Below, one piece after another: positions 9,845-64,000 of a stretch of DNA of 64,000 nucleotides. Position 1 is the stretch's first letter, and every line of letters starts with the position of its first letter. The position numbers and the translations under genes were made by a program. Source of the DNA: Marinobacter lutaoensis (GTDB lineage: Bacteria; Pseudomonadota; Gammaproteobacteria; Pseudomonadales; Oleiphilaceae); the NCBI RefSeq assembly GCF_001981305.1, contig NZ_MSCW01000003.1, forward strand, positions 62,001 to 126,000, read 5' to 3'. The notes under the pieces were generated by a model. That model ran no database searches. It was not told the origin of the DNA and worked only from the letters and a program-made list of their open reading frames with translations.

Positions 9845-10651
9845 ATGACCCGACCGGATAAGGCCCCCTCATTGCGTGTGCTCCAGATCACGGACCCTCA
9901 TCTGATGGCCCGTGCCGAGGGCGCGTTGCTGGGGGTAAACACCCGGGACAGCCTGTCCGCGGTCATCGGAGAGGCTCGCCGCCACCATGGCCAGCCGGAC
10001 CTGATTCTGGCCACCGGTGACCTGGCCCAGGACGGCTCGGAGGCCGCCTATCGGGTGTTTGGTGACAGCTTGGCGTGTTTCGGCAGCGATATGGCCTGGC
10101 TGGCCGGCAACCATGATGACACGGCGACGCTGGCCCGAACGGCCGCGCACTATGGCGCCGATCGGCGGCAACTGGTACGGGGTGGCTGGAACATCGTGTT
10201 GCTGGATTCCTCCGTGGCCGGTCAGGTGCACGGCGAGCTGGTGGCTCGGGAACTGACGTTTCTGGATACCGCGCTGGCGGCGGAGCCGCAGCGGCCCGCC
10301 CTGGTGGCGCTGCATCATCACCCGGTGGATATCGGGTCGGGCTGGATGGACCGGATCGGGTTGCGCAACCGGGAGGCATTCTGGGCGGTGATCGATCGTC
10401 ATCCGCAGGTTCGGGTGGTTTTGTGGGGGCATGTGCACCAGGCGTTCGATGGCGAGCGTAACGGTGTCCGGCTGCTGGCGACGCCTTCCACCTGCATCCA
10501 GTTCGCCAGGGGTTCCCGGGAGTTTGCGGTGGAGCCGCTGGCTCCCGGTTACCGATGGTTGGAGCTGGCGCCGGACGGCGGCCTCGTTACCGAGGTCCGC
10601 CGCGCCGACGGGTTCCGGTTTGAACTGGACCAGAACAGCTCGGGTTACTGA
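9845..10651 (+). CDS. cpdA: 3',5'-cyclic-AMP phosphodiesterase
   Basis: A 268-residue calcineurin-like metallophosphoesterase of the CpdA/Icc class that hydrolyses cAMP. The metal-binding set is complete: D17-x-H19 (ITDPHL), GDLAQDG, GNHDD, LHHHPV and GHVHQ. Length matches E. coli CpdA. The start has CAGGA five bases upstream. It sits after nudF and yqiB with a 163-bp gap containing a small hairpin (ATGCC/GGCAT near 9751-9763) but no clear promoter. Its last 7 bases overlap the end of the convergent metE gene. Confidence 0.93.
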
Positions 10652-56167: not shown

Positions 56168-57283
56168 ATGGCACTGAACAGTATTGAAGAGATCATCGAA
56201 GATATCCGCCAGGGTAGGATGGTCATCCTGATGGATGACGAGGACCGCGAGAACGAGGGAGACCTGGTCATGGCGGCCGAACACTGTACGCCGGAGGCCA
56301 TCAATTTCATGGCCAAGTTCGGGCGTGGCCTGATCTGTATGCCCATGACCCGCGAGCGCTGCGAGCAACTGGGGCTGCCTCTGATGGTGCAGCAGAACGC
56401 CTCCGGTTTTGGCACCAAGTTCACCCTGTCGATCGAGGCGCGTGAAGGCGTGACGACCGGCATTTCCGCCGCCGACCGGGCCCGTACCGTGCAGGCCGCG
56501 GTGGCCAAGGACGCCAAGCCGTCCGATCTGGTCCAGCCGGGCCATATTTTCCCGCTCATGGCGGATCCGGGCGGCGTGCTCAGCCGAGCCGGCCACACCG
56601 AGGCTGCCTGTGATCTCGCGGCGCTGGCCGGATGCGAGCCGGCGGGGGTCATCTGCGAGGTGATGAACGACGATGGCTCGATGGCGCGCCGGGAAGACCT
56701 GGAGCGGTTCGCGGAGCAGCATGGCCTGAAGATCGGGACCATCGCCGACCTGATCCACTACCGGACCACCAACGAGCGGACCATCGAGCTGTTGGATGAG
56801 AACGAGCTCGACACTGAATATGGCGTATTCTCGCTCCGCACCTATCGGGATACGATTCAGGGCGGCACTCATCTGGCGATGGTGAAAGGCGATATTTCCG
56901 GAGACGAGCCGGTGTTTGTCCGGGTGCACATCACCGACACCCTGCGTGATCTGCTGGGTGCGCGTCGCAAGGATTCCCCCAGCTGGCCGCTGCACCACGC
57001 ACTCGCGAAGGTTGCAGCGGAGGGCAAGGGCGTTGTGGTCCTGCTCAACAGCGCCGAGGACAGCCACAACCTGGAAGACCGGATCCATGAGTTCTTCGAC
57101 CGGGGCACCAAGCCTGCGGCGAAGGGCAGTGCCGGTGTGTATTTCACGGTGGGTACCGGCTCCCAGATTCTGCGTGACCTGGGGGTCCGCAAGATGCGTT
57201 TGCTGAGCCCGCCCGTCAAGTTTTCAGCCATTTCCGGATTCGACCTGGAAGTGGTGGAGTACGTACCCTTTTCCCCTGAATGA
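56168..57283 (+). CDS. ribB: 3,4-dihydroxy-2-butanone-4-phosphate synthase with degenerate GTP cyclohydrolase II domain
   Basis: A 371-residue RibBA-type protein. The N-terminal DHBP synthase (about 1-200) is intact: [52 protein letters not shown] and [21 protein letters not shown]. The C-terminal GTP cyclohydrolase II-like domain has lost the three zinc cysteines: where E. coli RibA has ECLTGD and RCDCG, this protein reads TDTLRD and RKDSP. So only the RibB reaction is expected; such RibBX proteins are known in pseudomonads, with RibA encoded elsewhere. The ATG at 56168 is preceded by GAGGGT. Confidence 0.93.
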
Positions 57284-57329
57284 ACAACCCGGTTGCCGGT
57301 GTTCCCGGACAGCCCGTGAAGGAGCCAGC

Positions 57330-57806
57330 ATGGCAAATATCAAAGTGATTGAAGGTGATTTTACCCAGTGCAGTGGCCGTTACGCTCTGGTGGTGGGCCG
57401 CTTCAACGGCTTCGTGGTGGAACGTTTGGTTGAGGGCGCGGTGGACACCCTGCGCCGTCACGGCATCTCCGAGGACGATATTGTGATCGTCCGGGTGCCG
57501 GGAGCCTATGAGATGCCGCTGGCGGTCAAGCGCGTTGCCGAGACCGGGGACTATGACGCGATCATTGCCCTGGGGGCGGTGATCCGTGGCGGTACCCCAC
57601 ATTTCGAATACGTCGCGGGCGAGGCCTCCAGCGGCCTGGGCGCAGTGAGCCTGGACACCAACGTGCCGGTCACCTTTGGCGTGCTGACGGTGGACTCGAT
57701 CGAGCAGGCGATCGAACGTTCCGGTACTAAGGCCGGCAATAAGGGCGCGGAAGCCGCCCTCACTGCATTGGAAATGGTCAGCCTGTTCAAGACACTGGGT
57801 GAGTGA
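57330..57806 (+). CDS. ribH: 6,7-dimethyl-8-ribityllumazine synthase
   Basis: A 158-residue lumazine synthase joining the RibD pyrimidine and RibB butanone phosphate. Family blocks: [56 protein letters not shown] and [29 protein letters not shown] is 6 bases before the ATG. Its stop overlaps nusB (TGATG). Confidence 0.97.
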
Positions 57807-58282
57807 TGAGTACGACCGACGATACCAGTCCCAAGCCTGCCTCTTCCGGACAGCCCAAGGCAGGCGATCGGCGCCGTGCCCGCGTGCTGGCGATGCAGGG
57901 GCTATACCAGCGCCATTTCAGCAAGAGCGCCATCTCAGACATCGAAGCCGAGTTCATGGTCGACAACGACATGAGCAAGGTGGACCTGCTGTACTTCCGT
58001 GACCTGCTCCGGGGAGTGCACCGGGAGCAGGGCGAGCTGGATGCCTTGCTGGGGCCGGTCCTCGACCGGCCGATCGAGGAAGTCGATCCGATTGAATTGG
58101 CCATCGTTCGGTTGGGGGCCTACGAACTGAAGCACCGCCTGGATGTGCCCTACCGGGTTGTAATCAATGAGGGCATCGAGCTGGCCAAGCGCTTTGGCGG
58201 CACCGATGGCCACAAGTTCGTCAACAGTGTCCTGGACAAATTGAGCCGCCGCCTTCGTCTGGCCGAGACTCGTCCCCGCTGA
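57806..58282 (+). CDS. nusB: Transcription antitermination factor NusB
   Basis: A 158-residue all-helical RNA-binding factor for rRNA antitermination with NusE. The N-terminal arginine-rich segment RRRARVLAMQGLYQRHFS and the C-terminal YRVVINEGIELAKRFGGTDGHKFVNSVLDKLS are diagnostic. The chosen ATG overlaps the ribH stop; a polar 20-residue extension precedes the core. The ribH-nusB-thiL order is conserved widely. Confidence 0.96.
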   Translation: MSTTDDTSPKPASSGQPKAGDRRRARVLAMQGLYQRHFSKSAISDIEAEFMVDNDMSKVDLLYFRDLLRGVHREQGELDALLGPVLDRPIEEVDPIELAIVRLGAYELKHRLDVPYRVVINEGIELAKRFGGTDGHKFVNSVLDKLSRRLRLAETRPR

Positions 58283-58285
58283 GCC

Positions 58286-59242
58286 ATGGGCGAGTTTGAC
58301 CTGATCCGCCGGTACTTCGATCCGGTGGCCCGAGAACAGGGCCACCCGGATCTGCGACTGGCCCTGGGGGATGACTGCGCCATCCTGCGGGTGCCGCCGG
58401 GACGGGATCTGGTATTTTCCATGGACACCCTGGTCGAGGGTGTCCACTTCCCCCGTGCCTATCCCGCTGAACGCCTCGCCTGGCGTGCCCTGGCGGCGGC
58501 CGCCAGTGATCTGGCGGCCATGGGCGCCGATCCGGTCTGTTTCACCCTGGCACTGACAATCCCCCGGTCCGAAGAGCGCTGGTTGGCGGCGTTTGCCCAG
58601 GGCCTGTCCGAGGCGGCCCGGTCGTTTGGGCTGGCGCTGGCGGGCGGTGATACCACGCGGGGGCCCCTGACGGTGACCCTGCAGGTGCAGGGTACCGTTC
58701 CCCAGGACCAGGCGCTCAGGCGCGACGGCGCGGCCGTTGGCGACCTGATTGTGGTGTCCGGAACCCTGGGCGATGCGGCGGCGGCCTTGGCCTATCTCGA
58801 CGAACGCTCGCCGTCGGAGGATGCGCGGGCGCTGCTGGCCCGGTACCACCGTCCCGTGCCCCGGTTGGCGCTTGGGCAGGCCCTGCGCGGTATCGCGTCG
58901 GCCGCCATCGATGTGTCCGACGGTCTGGGGGCGGACCTCCAGCATCTGCTGTCACGTTCAGGTGTTGGCGCCTGCCTTGACCTGTCCCAACTGCCGTTGT
59001 CGCCGGCGCTGCGACGCTGCCGGGGTCCCGAGGCCTCGCATCTGGCCTGGTGCGGTGGCGATGATTACGAGTTGTGCGTGACCCTTCCAGAAACCGGCTG
59101 GCACCGGTTGGCGCCGGCCGTCCGGGCGCAGTTGACGCCGATCGGGCGGGTCGAGTCCAAACCGGGGCTTCGGTTTCAGGAGGGCACTCCGGAGCCGGAT
59201 GGCTCGGCGGGGTTTGATCACTTCAGGAGTGAGGACGGATGA
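58286..59242 (+). CDS. thiL: Thiamine-monophosphate kinase
   Basis: A 318-residue PurM-fold kinase making thiamine pyrophosphate from thiamine monophosphate. Motifs: LALGDDCAIL, FSMDTLVEGVHFP, the magnesium aspartate in ASDLAAMGADP, GGDTTRGPL and DVSDGLGADL. It begins 3 bases after the nusB stop and its own stop overlaps pgpA (ATGA). Its product TPP is the ligand of the thiC riboswitch at 6.4 kb. Confidence 0.95.
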   Translation: MGEFDLIRRYFDPVAREQGHPDLRLALGDDCAILRVPPGRDLVFSMDTLVEGVHFPRAYPAERLAWRALAAAASDLAAMGADPVCFTLALTIPRSEERWLAAFAQGLSEAARSFGLALAGGDTTRGPLTVTLQVQGTVPQDQALRRDGAAVGDLIVVSGTLGDAAAALAYLDERSPSEDARALLARYHRPVPRLALGQALRGIASAAIDVSDGLGADLQHLLSRSGVGACLDLSQLPLSPALRRCRGPEASHLAWCGGDDYELCVTLPETGWHRLAPAVRAQLTPIGRVESKPGLRFQEGTPEPDGSAGFDHFRSEDG

Positions 59243-59766
59243 GTCACGAGGATGACTTTCAGGAACCGGAGCTGCCACAGGCGCTGTTGCCGCCTGGCTT
59301 CCTGAAGGATCCGGTTCACCTGCTTGCCTTCGGACTGGGTAGCGGTGCCATGGCTCGTGCGCCGGGAACCTGGGGCAGCCTGGCGGCGATTCCGGTCTGG
59401 TACCTGTTTGCGTGGGTGCCTGGCCCGGTGTATTGGGGGGGGGTGCTGGTGGCCTTCCTGGTGGGGATATGGCTGTGTGGCCGGACCGCCAGCGATCTGA
59501 AGGTGCATGACCACTCGGGCATCGTGTGGGACGAGTTCGTTGGCATGTGGGTGGCGCTGGGCCTGTTCCCGGACACGATATACGGGGTTCTGGTGGCCTT
59601 CGCGCTGTTCCGCCTGTTCGATATCGTCAAGCCCTGGCCGATCGGGTGGCTGGACCGGCGTTTGCCCGGAGGCCTGGGCATCATGGTGGACGACGTGCTG
59701 GCGGGCGTCATGGCCTTGGTGTGCCTGCTGGCGATCGACCGCTGGTTGATGCCGGTGGTGCTCTAG
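59239..59766 (+). CDS. pgpA: Phosphatidylglycerophosphatase A
   Basis: A 175-residue inner membrane phosphatase that forms phosphatidylglycerol. It has several hydrophobic segments (about 46-62, 65-83, 96-118, 150-172) and the conserved GSGAMARAPGTWGSLAAIP, HDHSGIVWDEFVGMWVAL and FRLFDIVKPWPI blocks. Start overlaps thiL. It is the last gene of the run that begins near nrdR and converges with the DUF6316 gene. Confidence 0.94.
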   Translation: MSHEDDFQEPELPQALLPPGFLKDPVHLLAFGLGSGAMARAPGTWGSLAAIPVWYLFAWVPGPVYWGGVLVAFLVGIWLCGRTASDLKVHDHSGIVWDEFVGMWVALGLFPDTIYGVLVAFALFRLFDIVKPWPIGWLDRRLPGGLGIMVDDVLAGVMALVCLLAIDRWLMPVVL

Positions 59767-59771
59767 GCGGC

Positions 59772-59984
59772 TCAATGCAGCTGGGGTTCCTCGGGTTGCT
59801 CGGGCAGCATGCGGACCACGTGCAGAAAGCGTTTCAGGCCGATTTCCGCTCGCTCCCGCGAGGCAAAGGGGCCGCTGTCGAAGCCCTCACGGGTGGTGAA
59901 ATACCACTTGCCGCCCACACAGAAAAATCGGCTGCTGCGAAAAGGTACGGGGCCTTCTTCTCCAGCGCGTCGCTGAGTGTCCAT
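59772..59984 (-). CDS. DUF6316 family small protein
   Basis: A 70-residue cytoplasmic protein (MDTQRRAGEEG...) with the compact pattern VPFRSSRFFCVGGKWYFTTREG and GPFASRERAEIGLKRFLHVV. I recall this pattern as DUF6316, present in pseudomonads and Marinobacter; function unknown. No membrane helix or signal is visible. AGGAG sits 5 bases before the ATG. It ends 5 bases from the convergent pgpA stop. Confidence 0.85.
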   Translation of the reverse strand: MDTQRRAGEEGPVPFRSSRFFCVGGKWYFTTREGFDSGPFASRERAEIGLKRFLHVVRMLPEQPEEPQLH

Positions 59985-60033
59985 GGTGTCTCCTGAGCCC
60001 ACTTATGATTTTTTGCTTTTCGGGCAGCGCGTT

Positions 60034-60066
60034 GATTAAGCCGATTGTTTAAAATTAATCCAATCG
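60034..60066 (-). promoter_or_regulatory. AT-rich control region of the DUF6316 gene with interleaved dyads
   Basis: GATTAA (60034-60039) pairs with TTAATC (60055-60060), and CGATTG (60042-60047) pairs with CAATCG (60061-60066), so two dyads interleave. On the reverse strand TTGAAT and TAATTT, 16 bases apart just upstream, form a possible promoter. The 254-bp gap 59985-60238 holds no other gene that I can support. Confidence 0.4.
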
Positions 60067-60111
60067 TGGGCGAATTCAACATTTTTTTACATTTTTCCAG
60101 CCGAATGCCGC

Positions 60112-60154
60112 AAAAAAGGGCGGGCCGGAGGCGCCGACGCGGTTACGGCCCGCC
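60112..60154 (-). terminator. Reverse-strand terminator-like hairpin upstream of the DUF2057 gene
   Basis: A 9-bp stem (GGCGGGCCG with CGGCCCGCC, 18-base structured loop) is followed on the reverse strand by CTTTTTTG. The only gene on that strand in reach is the wax ester synthase, ending 668 bp upstream, so its transcript might run antisense through the lipoprotein gene to this point. Confidence 0.55.
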
Positions 60155-60238
60155 TTGCGCCCAGGAAGCACGCCGGTCAGAATGCCTCGGTTGAACGCGA
60201 ATCCGAAAACCTTCCTAACTTTTCGACGAGGAGTTTAC

Positions 60239-60889
60239 ATGACACTTTCCCATGTTACCGGTTGGTGCCGGCCCCTGTTGGCGGGTGTGCTGGTGCTGAT
60301 GCTTTCGGCCTGTGCATCATCGGTGTCCCGGGTGGAGACCTGGCAGGGAAATCCGGCGGCGGCTTCGGAAGCGGCCGTGCTGAAAGCACCGGGCGAGATC
60401 CAGGTGAAGAATGTCAACGGTCGCAGCATGACCAATTTCCTGATCGACGATCTGGATCTGGACTATGCACTGCTGCCGGGCGAGAACCAGGTGGTGTTCA
60501 CCTACAAGACCATCTGGGCCAACCCGGGGGTGGTCGAAAATGGGGAGTCGAAGGTCTTTACCGTTGAAAGCGACCCTCAGGTCGTGCGCTTTGACGCGCG
60601 TCCAAACGCCGTCTATCACTTCGAGTTTGACAAGCCCGCCACCCGGCCCGAGGCGGAGGCCATGATGCCGACCTTCAGCGCGACCCTAGTGGACGCCCAG
60701 GGGCAGGTGGTTGCCACTTCCAACCGGTGGACGCCGACCGCGGGGACGGCTGCTCGTACGCCGCTGCCGGCTCTGGGTGAAACCGCATCCGAGAGTGCCG
60801 ATGGTTCCACCCTGGAGCGGCTCAAGGCTGTTTGGGCGACCGCCTCCGACGAGGAAAAACGCGCCTTCCTGCGCTGGGCGTTTGAATAG
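60239..60889 (+). CDS. DUF2057 (YccT-like) lipoprotein
   Basis: A 216-residue predicted lipoprotein: signal peptide about 1-21 ending LMLSAC. The mature part matches DUF2057/YccT: KNVNGRSMTNFLIDDLDLDYALLPGENQVVFTYKTIW, FDARPNAVYHFEF and the C-terminal EEKRAFLRWAFE. Family function is unclear; E. coli YccT has been linked to curli regulation. The ATG has GAGGAG upstream. Its last 68 bases overlap the end of the wax ester synthase gene on the opposite strand. Confidence 0.87.
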   Translation: MTLSHVTGWCRPLLAGVLVLMLSACASSVSRVETWQGNPAAASEAAVLKAPGEIQVKNVNGRSMTNFLIDDLDLDYALLPGENQVVFTYKTIWANPGVVENGESKVFTVESDPQVVRFDARPNAVYHFEFDKPATRPEAEAMMPTFSATLVDAQGQVVATSNRWTPTAGTAARTPLPALGETASESADGSTLERLKAVWATASDEEKRAFLRWAFE

Positions 60890-62330
60890 CCTCGGGCGTT
60901 GCTCCGTCCTCCGGAGGGCAGTGGCGAGCCTGGCTCTCAATGGCATCCAGGCTTGCGCTGACATGGTCGCTGAGTGAGGCTCCGTCGGCAACGACATCGG
61001 GGCACAGCGTGAAGTTCAGGGTCAGCGTGCCCTGATAGCTGACCGCCACCACCACCAGTCCCAGGCTGTCGAACAGGGGCGCACTGTTGTACTGCCGGAC
61101 CAGCCGGGCGCCCTGTAAATACAGGGGCACCTGGGGCCCGGGGACATTGGTGATGGGCAAGTTGAACAGCGGCTGATAGCGCTGAGCCACCTGGAGTTCG
61201 GAGTAGAGCCGGGCGGAAAGCGCGAGCAGGGTGGAGGGCAGCAGTTCTGTCAGGCGGTCGGCCGCGATCGCCTCGCGATAGGGTTCGCTGGCCACGGCAT
61301 TGCGGTGGATGTGCCGGATCCGCCGGGCCGGGTCCGGTTCGTCGGTGGCCAGGTCCAGCAGCATCGCGGACATCTGGTTACCGGTGGCGCGCCGAAGGCT
61401 GCTGGAGCGAACGGAAATGGGGGTCATTGCCACCAGCGGGCGCACGGGCGTGGCCCCTTGGGCCTTCAGGTAGCGGCGCAGGGTTTCCGCGCAAAGGCCC
61501 AGCACCACATCATTCAGAGTGACATCGCCGAGCTCGGCCTTGATGCGCTTGAGGCGGGCCAACTCAATTCGTGTCGCTACGATTTCGCGCCGGCGCGTGA
61601 CGTGGCGATTGAACGGGCTGGTGGGTGCGGAGAACAGCGGTACCGGCCAGGGCAGCCTGCGCAGATAGCGCTGTACCAGGCCCTTCGTCGTGGCTTCCGT
61701 GGCCCGGGCGGCGAGAGCTGTCAGCGTCAAGGGCGCCTTGATCAGCTGGGCCCCCGCCTGCAATAGCACCCGCTCCCGTGACGGTTCTGGGTGAGGGCGC
61801 CAGGGGCGTGGCGCCGGTATGGGCGCGGGCTCCGGAAGGTATTCCAGCAACAGCCCCATGATTTCCTCGCCACTGAACGCGTCGATGGCGGCGTGATGCA
61901 GTTTGACAATCAGCGCGAAGGCGGCTTTGTCCTGACCGCTGCCCTCCAGCCGAAAACCGTCGACGAAGGTGATGTGCCAGAGTGGCCGGTCCCGTTTCAG
62001 GGGTGTTTCCAGAATCTTGGCCGCCAGGGCCATGAGGCTGGCCTCTCGCCCCTGATCACCGAGATTCACGTAGGCGAGGTGGCGCTCAATGCTGAACTCC
62101 GGGTCATCGACCCAGTAAGGGCGCCCCAGTTGCCAGGGCATGTCCCGCAACCGTTGCCGGAACAGGGGCACCACGTGCAGCCGGCTGCGCAGATAGGCGA
62201 CGAAGGTGCTGAACGCCAGGGGGGCGTCCCGGTCGCTGGCATCGAACAGGTAGATACCGCCGATGTGCATAGGCGTGGTGTCCGATTCCAGATACAGGAA
62301 CGACGCATCCAGTTCCGAGAGCTGCCGCAT
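60822..62330 (-). CDS. Wax ester synthase/diacylglycerol acyltransferase (WS/DGAT)
   Basis: A 502-residue storage-lipid acyltransferase condensing acyl-CoA with fatty alcohols or diacylglycerol. The N-terminal MRQLSELDASFLYLES and the PLW motif (DRPLW) are typical. The catalytic HHXXXDG motif reads H145-H-A-A-I-D150-A151, with alanine for the final glycine. The NDVVL motif and ITNVPGP block are present. The C-terminus is a basic tail (GRRVFPRRRRSPKQP) that lies in the overlap with the DUF2057 gene. Marinobacter species carry several such genes. No lipid gene is adjacent. Confidence 0.92.
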   Translation of the reverse strand: MRQLSELDASFLYLESDTTPMHIGGIYLFDASDRDAPLAFSTFVAYLRSRLHVVPLFRQRLRDMPWQLGRPYWVDDPEFSIERHLAYVNLGDQGREASLMALAAKILETPLKRDRPLWHITFVDGFRLEGSGQDKAAFALIVKLHHAAIDAFSGEEIMGLLLEYLPEPAPIPAPRPWRPHPEPSRERVLLQAGAQLIKAPLTLTALAARATEATTKGLVQRYLRRLPWPVPLFSAPTSPFNRHVTRRREIVATRIELARLKRIKAELGDVTLNDVVLGLCAETLRRYLKAQGATPVRPLVAMTPISVRSSSLRRATGNQMSAMLLDLATDEPDPARRIRHIHRNAVASEPYREAIAADRLTELLPSTLLALSARLYSELQVAQRYQPLFNLPITNVPGPQVPLYLQGARLVRQYNSAPLFDSLGLVVVAVSYQGTLTLNFTLCPDVVADGASLSDHVSASLDAIESQARHCPPEDGATPEAIQTPSAGRRVFPRRRRSPKQP

Positions 62331-62423
62331 GGTCTAACTCCTTCCGGCACGGTTTTCGGCAGTATAAACCAGCGTCGGCCAGTCCTGGTTGACCCACTGG
62401 CCATTCCCGGAAGCGGCTTCCGG

Positions 62424-63359
62424 TCAGGGGGCCTCTGGAGGGCTGGCCTGCGGCGCCAACCAATCCCGAAGGGCGGGGTCCTGTTGCAGCCGCTCCCAGA
62501 ACCAAGTGAGGGCATTGCCCTGATCTTCGGCACGTCGGGCCAGGTGCAGTACGATGGGCTGGCGGGGGTCCTGTACGGCTTTCTCCACCAAGCGACCACT
62601 CCGGAGCTGCTCCCGAATCCGGGGTCTGGGCAGCCAGCCGACGCCCAGGCCCGCCTCCTGAACCGCGATTTTCTGATCGATGTTGCTGACAGTCAGGGTT
62701 CGCTGGCGGCGGAAGATACCCGCGTTGCCCGGGGGCAGGGCGCGGGAGGTGTCGGCGGCGACGGCCGCGGGGTATTGGGCGATGAGCTCCTCCGATAAGG
62801 GCTCGGTGGCGAGGGCGAGCGGATGCCCGGGTGCGACCGCGAAGATGAAGTCGATTTCTCCCAGAGTCCGGGTACTGAAACTGCCAGCTGGCTTGCTGAA
62901 ATGGTCGGCGCCGACGATCAGATCCACCCGGCGGCTTTGCAGGGCATCCCAGGCCCCGGCAAACACCTCCTCGACGATCTGGACGTCGACGGGCACGCCC
63001 AGCTGCTGGAAGTCACGGATGGCCGGGAACAGGCAGGTGGCAGGCATCAGGGAGTTGAAGCCGATGCGCAGCCGGGTTTCCCAGCCCTGGGCCACTTGTC
63101 GGGTGGCGTGGGCGAGATTCTCCGCGGCTTCCAGCAGTGCCCGTCCTTCCTCCAGCAGGTAGCGGCCTGCCGGTGTCAGTACCGCCCGGTGTCCACTGCG
63201 GTCGAAGATCCGGGTATCGAGGTCCTCTTCCAGTTTCTGCACGGTGTAGCTGATGGCCGAGGGCACCCGGAACAGCTCGGCGGCGGCGCCGGCGAAGCTG
63301 CCTCTGCGGTCGATGGCGTCCAGGACTTTCAAGGCATCGAGGGATAGGGCGGTGTGCAT
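62424..63359 (-). CDS. LysR-family transcriptional regulator
   Basis: A 311-residue LysR-type regulator. The N-terminal winged helix (about 1-60) contains LDAIDRRGSFAGAAAELFRVPSAISYTVQKLEEDL; the effector-binding domain follows (LRIGFNSLMPATCLFPAIRDF). The start is the ATG at 63359; a TTG two codons upstream is possible. It is divergent from a glutathionyl-hydroquinone reductase gene, the usual sign that it controls that neighbour. The 98-bp gap between them contains short AT-rich tracts but no clear LysR box. Confidence 0.9.
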   Translation of the reverse strand: MHTALSLDALKVLDAIDRRGSFAGAAAELFRVPSAISYTVQKLEEDLDTRIFDRSGHRAVLTPAGRYLLEEGRALLEAAENLAHATRQVAQGWETRLRIGFNSLMPATCLFPAIRDFQQLGVPVDVQIVEEVFAGAWDALQSRRVDLIVGADHFSKPAGSFSTRTLGEIDFIFAVAPGHPLALATEPLSEELIAQYPAAVAADTSRALPPGNAGIFRRQRTLTVSNIDQKIAVQEAGLGVGWLPRPRIREQLRSGRLVEKAVQDPRQPIVLHLARRAEDQGNALTWFWERLQQDPALRDWLAPQASPPEAP

Positions 63360-63457
63360 GTTCAAATTTACTGAGGTTGTTGGCCAGAAATGCTTGTTTG
63401 AGAGGGTAGCAGGCTCGAACGTATTCTTCTCTACAAATTGTTTGTCAGGAGAATGCG

Positions 63458-64000
63458 ATGGGATTGCTGATCGAGGGCCAGTGGCACGACCAGTGGTATG
63501 ACACCGACAAGACCGGTGGCCGCTTCGAGCGGGAAAAGGCCCGGTTCCGGCACTGGGTCACCCCTGGCGGTTCGCCCGGTCCTAGTGGTCAGGGCGGTTT
63601 CCCGGCTGAAAGTGGCCGCTATCACCTGTATGTGTCCATGGCCTGTCCCTGGGCGCACCGGACCCTGATTGTCCGTGCGCTGAAGGGGCTGGCGCCGCAT
63701 ATTTCGGTGTCGGTGGTGCACCCGGACATGTTGGAGAATGGTTGGGAATTCCGGCCGGACGATGAACGGTACCGGGACCATCTCCATAATCACCGTTTTC
63801 TGCATCAGGTCTACACCCGGGCGGTGCCGGACTACAGCGGGCGGGTGACGGTGCCAGTGCTGTGGGACCGGCGGCGGGACACCATCGTCAGCAACGAATC
63901 GGCGGAGATCATCCGGATGTTCAACAGCGCCTTTGACGGGCTGGCGGGTGTCCGGTCGGATCTCGATATCTACCCGGAACCGTTGCGAGCGGAAATCGAG
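63458..64000 (+). CDS. Glutathionyl-hydroquinone reductase (Xi-class GST, YqjG type), 3' end outside window
   Basis: The frame is open for 181 codons from an ATG preceded by AGGAG to the window edge. The motif C63-P-W-A-H-R (MACPWAHRTLIVRALKG) with its nucleophilic cysteine defines Xi-class glutathione transferases, which reduce glutathionyl-hydroquinones. VPVLWDRRRDTIVSNESAEIIRMFN supplies the glutathione-binding (E)S site. The C-terminal helical domain is cut off. Divergent LysR gene upstream is its likely regulator. Confidence 0.92.
   Translation, partial: MGLLIEGQWHDQWYDTDKTGGRFEREKARFRHWVTPGGSPGPSGQGGFPAESGRYHLYVSMACPWAHRTLIVRALKGLAPHISVSVVHPDMLENGWEFRPDDERYRDHLHNHRFLHQVYTRAVPDYSGRVTVPVLWDRRRDTIVSNESAEIIRMFNSAFDGLAGVRSDLDIYPEPLRAEIE

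Follow-up and report, generated by a model that had tools for sequence, protein, structure and literature searches.

A tail-to-tail gene overlap in Marinobacter lutaoensis as a possible natural terminator-loss allele with a candidate backstop hairpin

Convergent transcription units and the locus

Convergent gene pairs that lack an intervening terminator form one class of overlapping transcription in the scheme outlined by a review of the excludon (PMC7154746). An arrangement of this kind is found in a stretch of 64,000 nucleotides (nt) from Marinobacter lutaoensis (contig NZ_MSCW01000003.1, positions 62,001 to 126,000; hereafter the window), where a reverse-strand gene of the wax ester synthase (WS)/DGAT acyltransferase family and a forward-strand gene for a DUF2057 lipoprotein run into each other at their 3' ends. 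The locus fits a natural allele in which a terminator has been lost, possibly backed up by another one farther on, and not a conserved excludon. We give roughly an even chance to the proposal that a deletion removed the end of the WS gene together with a hairpin at the junction, and that the WS mRNA partly reads on, antisense through DUF2057, as far as a hairpin at 60154-60119.

As in the 3'-overlap excludon (PMC7154746), the two genes converge with no terminator between them, and an mRNA antisense to the neighbour is predicted; unlike that system, transcript and reciprocal regulation would here be hypothetical, and of the species compared only one has the arrangement. A second precedent is that of Staphylococcus aureus, in which read-through of the sbrB terminator yields an RNA antisense to lexA, with variation between strains (PMC8745188). 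In both loci a convergent terminator would have been inactivated by natural sequence variation, with antisense RNA to the neighbour as the outcome, which is predicted here; the difference is that in S. aureus the change is a mispair in the hairpin, established experimentally, whereas here it would be a deletion of the junction and of a gene end. In Rickettsia prowazekii, antisense RNA arises at convergent genes whose transcription does not terminate cleanly (PMC3027695); the gene ends are comparable to those described here, but the antisense RNA was measured there and is predicted here, and a backstop hairpin past the neighbouring gene is not mentioned in the abstract of that study. Finally, the order WS (reverse), DUF2057 (forward), DUF6316 (reverse) would permit a noncontiguous operon, of which menE-menC-MW1733-ytkD-MW1731 is an example (PMC7154746), if the hairpin were read through, although the strong terminator candidate between DUF2057 and DUF6316 would interrupt such a transcript. 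No paper on a WS-DUF2057 excludon was found among the matches listed. The loss of a convergent terminator giving rise to antisense RNA is a known kind of event, and the window would represent a further predicted case, if transcribed.

The overlap and the shortened end of the WS gene

The WS gene occupies 60822-62330 on the reverse strand and encodes 502 residues, while the DUF2057 gene (60239-60889, forward strand; Pfam DUF2057, 6.3e-22) encodes 216 residues with a lipobox-like LSAC, its start and lipobox having been read from the sequence. In Salmonella, the DUF2057 gene yccT has been tied to peroxide stress (PMC6955953). According to the initial annotation, both coding regions share 68 base pairs (bp) at 60822-60889 on opposite strands, and the coordinates of the two open reading frames (ORFs) bear this out. 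The last 68 nt of the WS ORF are thus antisense to DUF2057 codons, and its stop codon (60822-60824) spans Leu-Lys codons of DUF2057 that are common to all seven aligned loci.

For comparison, 124 genomes of the genus, one per species, were searched; 119 gave a DUF2057 match, and one locus per genome was used, that of the window included. The WS gene is convergent with and adjacent to DUF2057 in 104/119 loci, the remaining 15, which have no WS gene in the extracted stretch, being excluded from later counts. A second, named set comprised the best 80 of 108 WS-protein matches, 74 of which are labelled Marinobacter and 74 of which could be measured for gap or overlap; many assemblies are common to both sets. 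The pair is therefore a genus-wide feature, but its overlap is seen in only 2/104 convergent loci, the window (68 nt) and genome G020 (21 nt), the other 102 having gaps of 2-68 nt with a median of 33. In the named set, Marinobacter fuscus (L241) overlaps, L255 does so by about 4 nt, and in Tamilnaduibacter the two genes are 124 nt apart. Three apparent overlaps were discarded: those of 68 nt in G023 and 338 nt in G086 came from tblastn segments that ran past the stop, and when the ORFs are followed from their conserved core the gaps are 28 and 22 nt, respectively, whereas the 97 nt first obtained for L255 was an artefact of segment extension, the figure given above being that of its in-frame ORFs. 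The G020 locus (L160) has lost its last WS residues, and its WS tail is the same as that of M. fuscus. The window itself holds a second convergent overlap, of 7 nt, at 10645-10651, between a metallophosphatase gene and metE.

The distance from the codons for the conserved WS motif xFTLCPD to the DUF2057 stop is 127 nt in the window versus 237-239 nt in the close relatives L002-L006 and L008; the median of all other loci is 249 nt, and the lowest values among them are 151 and 192 nt. L007, which ranks with the close relatives, has a WS tail of 71 residues and a gap of 22 nt. When the window is aligned with L002-L006 and L008, an alignment gap falls directly beside the DUF2057 stop. The stretch holding the presumed deletion point extends from that stop to the last alignable WS codons (60890-60932), where relatives are about 110 nt longer. 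The parsimonious reading is that this lineage lost some 110 nt net in the interval from the WS core to the end of DUF2057. Such a deletion would have taken the codons for the C-terminal segment of the WS protein along with the stop codon, and also the short intergenic gap and the inverted repeat in it, after which WS translation would continue to a chance stop within antisense DUF2057.

The WS protein of the window ends in AGRRVFPRRRRSPKQP, an Arg-rich tail, and has lost the conserved C-terminal segment of its close relatives (e.g., LTDEALTxLEGxLRKTLKRFRA). The lost segment lies past the Pfam C-terminal domain, which reaches residue 464, and past the matches to solved structures, which reach residues 465 and 462. 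The WS tail measures 69-75 residues in 102/104 loci, the exceptions being the window, with 64, and G076, with 42. Of the last 12 residues of the new tail five are basic, exactly the median of the 104 loci, so its basic character would have been kept by chance or by selection. In G076 (L011), the shortened tail still ends in basic residues, the gap is 22 nt, and the internal deletion lies in the same linker; in G050 (L145), one TGA within the WS match indicates a broken copy or a sequencing error.

The protein is assigned to the family by Pfam WS_DGAT_cat (4.5e-52) and WS_DGAT_C (2.3e-25), and by TIGR02946, with 400.7 bits against a cut-off of 309.95. The catalytic motif of WS/DGAT acyltransferases is HHxxxDG, whereas that of the window reads HHAAIDA (61878-61898); Ala replaces Gly in 80/80 named loci (L180-L259), which have the form HH-x-x-[I/V]-D-A. 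Taking into account this replacement, the WS-like group found next to DUF2057 may not share the activity of the wax ester synthases that have been characterised, and the labels "wax ester synthase" and "storage lipid", used in the initial annotation, are unproven for this gene. Three further members of the family are encoded elsewhere in the genome.

Hairpins at the junction and beyond the DUF2057 gene

The absence of a visible terminator near the WS stop, as first annotated, holds for both strands of the junction, which carries no U-tailed candidate; no T-tailed hairpin follows either WS or DUF2057, and this places the pair among convergent genes with no terminator between them. Many relatives differ in this respect. 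The z-score of the junction fold is -2 or lower in 60/104 loci on the plus strand and in 52/104 on the minus strand, versus 6/104 when a control segment within DUF2057 is folded on the plus strand. If a gap of 33 nt is assumed, the corresponding scores are -1.3 and -0.1 in the window, and -0.7 and 0.1 in the overlapping locus L160. U-tailed junction hairpins are predicted on the minus strand in 40/104 loci (19% in shuffles) and on the plus strand in 52/104 (32% in shuffles), and in some clades the last WS codons form one arm of the junction hairpin.

It has to be noted that a missing terminator at the WS stop means little by itself, since only 4/22 unit ends in the window have a U-tailed hairpin (dG of -12 or lower, at most 180 nt from the unit end) and 18/22 do not, as counted from a rough ORF call in which several ORFs have no Pfam match. 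This base rate favours another explanation, possible if somewhat doubtful, in which these are ordinary compact convergent ends: WS transcripts would stop soon after the stop codon, through Rho or 3' trimming, and the distant hairpin would rarely meet RNA polymerase. Antisense RNA past a stop codon is untranslated and open to Rho, and tight convergent spacing is usual in the window, where, of the six pairs with a Pfam match on both sides, four are separated by 46, 62, 16 and 5 nt and two overlap, by 7 and 68 nt (five other pairs of the rough call, without Pfam on at least one side, were left out). The fat-tailed length distribution reported for long gene overlaps in prokaryotes (PMC2174442) counts on the same side. 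However, compact ends would leave without a function a very strong, private, terminator-like hairpin, toward which WS is the closest gene to read on the reverse strand.

This is the next reverse-strand hairpin with a T-run, which was first annotated at 60112-60154, past the whole DUF2057 gene, and which was found as described. Its stem-loop (60119-60154, minus strand) has a dG of -25.1 kcal/mol and is followed by a tract at 60112-60118 consisting of a C and then six U (60117-60112), so that the element as a whole, a stable G+C-rich stem-loop with a U-tract, fits the form of an intrinsic terminator and constitutes a strong predicted candidate. A 63-nt fold around it keeps the same stem, with a z-score of -1.88 and 8/200 shuffles folding at least as well, and part of the U-tract pairs in that fold with an upstream GCAA. 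A relaxed minus-strand scan of 60840-60101 gives this hairpin plus three others with four U in 8 (dG -15.5, -9.3 and -6.8); a scan with a loop limit of 8 did not list it.

In the 64 kb, it is the only minus-strand site with a dG of -15 or lower and at least six U in 8. Sixty block shuffles of the 64 kb gave, with at least six U in 8, means of 3.15 sites at -15 or lower, 0.88 at -20 or lower, and 0.15 at -25 or lower. Since shuffles average 3.15, what is notable about the hairpin is how stable it is and where it lies, and not how many such sites there are; the expectation for the intergenic stretch of about 235 nt, scaled after the place had been seen, is about 6e-4. No upstream candidate was found in the seven close loci L002-L008, and that of the window is the most stable in this intergenic region among the 104 loci, the next having -16.5. 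Genus-wide, minus-strand candidates in this upstream position are not enriched (22/104 versus 19% in shuffles), and compensation between junction and upstream hairpins was rejected as a general rule, given that the mean minus-strand junction z-score is -1.89 with an upstream hairpin and -1.88 without it. An origin in a repeat or mobile element was likewise discarded: a 106-bp search of its own genome (3.83 Mb in 25 contigs) returned the region itself plus 19 short, weak matches, the best of which (27 bp, 89%, E 0.004), the one inspected, falls within G-rich sequence and by eye lacks the hairpin-plus-T layout. The reverse-strand genes found reading toward the hairpin are WS and, upstream of it, a LysR gene.

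In the favoured reading, once the junction hairpin had been lost, part of WS transcription would go on antisense through DUF2057 and its promoter; Rho would remove some of these transcripts, and the remainder would end at 60112-60119. A role of the hairpin as a shield of the DUF2057 promoter is impossible, because a polymerase coming from WS crosses that promoter first. What it would protect from read-through is the DUF6316 gene, and DUF2057 would stay exposed to polymerase collision, promoter occlusion, and RNA pairing. The effect on DUF2057 would then be by-product interference under strong WS transcription, and not an evolved switch.

Several observations weigh against this read-through after a deletion. 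Many of the junction hairpins in relatives have poor U-tracts and may merely stabilise 3' ends, the predicted hairpin varies between clades, and covariation is weak: in four clades picked by eye (13, 6, 7 and 9 sequences), compensatory and broken cells amount to 2 and 8 of 143, 0 and 7 of 95, 2 and 5 of 63, and 5 and 7 of 63. The close relative L002 shows no excess of minus-strand junction folding (z +0.96). In addition, 38/104 loci have U-tailed candidates within antisense DUF2057, a count made without a shuffle control, so the junction is not the sole possible stop in other loci. The antisense strand has a C/G ratio of at most 1.48, little sign of a Rho site, and one hairpin as strong as that at 60119-60154 per 64-kb strand is not very rare, given that about 0.15 are expected by chance. 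The second overlapping species, L160, has only a weak upstream candidate (dG -9.8), with no comparable backstop. Lastly, as each species is represented by one genome, an assembly error at the junction is possible.

The DUF2057 promoter, neighbouring genes and regulatory readings

The gene order at the locus is pgpA (forward), DUF6316 (reverse), DUF2057 (forward), WS/DGAT-like (reverse) and LysR (reverse). The most likely start of DUF2057 is the ATG at 60239, preceded by GAGGAG. An alternative, longer ORF would start at a TTG at 60155, and it is disfavoured because a conserved promoter falls within it. This predicted promoter (60155-60183, forward strand) consists of TTGCGC (60155-60160), a 17-nt spacer and CAGAAT (60178-60183), and is suggested by conservation in the genus: CAGAATG lies upstream of DUF2057 in 63/104 loci, and in 60/63 it is preceded at 17 nt by a hexamer of the TTGC type, the best of spacings 16-18 having been taken.

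The right arm of the hairpin reaches 60154, immediately before the -35 hexamer, whose first base is 60155, a contiguity that would suit an inverted repeat acting as DNA, as an operator adjoining the -35 element. We regard this as very improbable, since the arms stand about 18 nt apart, the six-base T-tract is on one strand only, as in a terminator, and no such hairpin exists in the seven close loci. The position of the hairpin just past the 5' end of DUF2057 on the antisense strand would also agree with a short antisense RNA, begun inside DUF2057 or its leader and independent of WS, which the hairpin would end. This is unlikely too: a search of 59000-64000 gave no Rfam match up to E 1, and the only promoter-like site reported by a consensus scan of 57000-64000 is at 63398 in the forward direction, although the latter argument is weak because the same scan misses the conserved DUF2057 promoter.

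The DUF6316 gene (59772-60002, reverse strand; Pfam DUF6316, 2.6e-22), the next on that strand past the hairpin, is separated by 5 nt (59766-59772) from the convergent pgpA, and neither stop has a terminator candidate at a distance of up to 180 nt. It follows that DUF6316 may likewise be under antisense read-through. Between DUF6316 and DUF2057, a conserved A+T-rich block at 60028-60100 (like TTTAAAATTAATCCAATC...AATTCAACATTTTTTTACATTT), present in the majority of 14 loci inspected, may contain the promoter of DUF6316, or else a terminator on the plus strand for the operon ending with pgpA; plus-strand terminator candidates occur in this intergenic region in 51/104 loci.

The initial annotation had interpreted the locus as an excludon-like pairing of storage lipid and envelope lipoprotein expression. 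The convergent anatomy and the strong terminator candidate past DUF2057 uphold part of this, whereas the rarity of the overlap and the lack of upstream enrichment speak against an evolved excludon. In such a system, an antisense WS 3' end of about 0.7 kb would repress DUF2057, and transcription of DUF2057 would repress WS. In its favour, the hairpin stands beyond the entire DUF2057 gene, but the overlap is confined to 2/104 loci, the hairpin is private and upstream hairpins are not enriched, so that the arrangement lacks a conservation which, though not strictly required of an excludon, would have supported a function. Moreover, no functional link was found between the WS-like protein, with its unproven activity, and the DUF2057 protein. 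Taken together, an evolved excludon appears improbable here.

A related proposal, for which the chances are modest, is that of terminator relocation. After the deletion, a new terminator past DUF2057 would have fixed a WS 3' untranslated region of about 0.7 kb, pairing with the entire DUF2057 mRNA, and so given rise to a newborn, species-specific excludon. It is drawn from a single case, and the other overlapping species has no hairpin of such strength.

If WS transcription does read through DUF2057, the locus would be a natural experiment, with gene ends that are apart in 102/104 loci and, in this species, a lost junction and a strong hairpin past the neighbour. It would raise the question of whether an antisense overlap begins as a neutral accident and a backstop terminator follows. 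Should the terminator have been relocated, a newborn excludon could be compared with relatives in which the gene ends are intact. For a tail-to-tail overlap found in a single genome, relatives should be compared before regulatory meaning is assigned to it.
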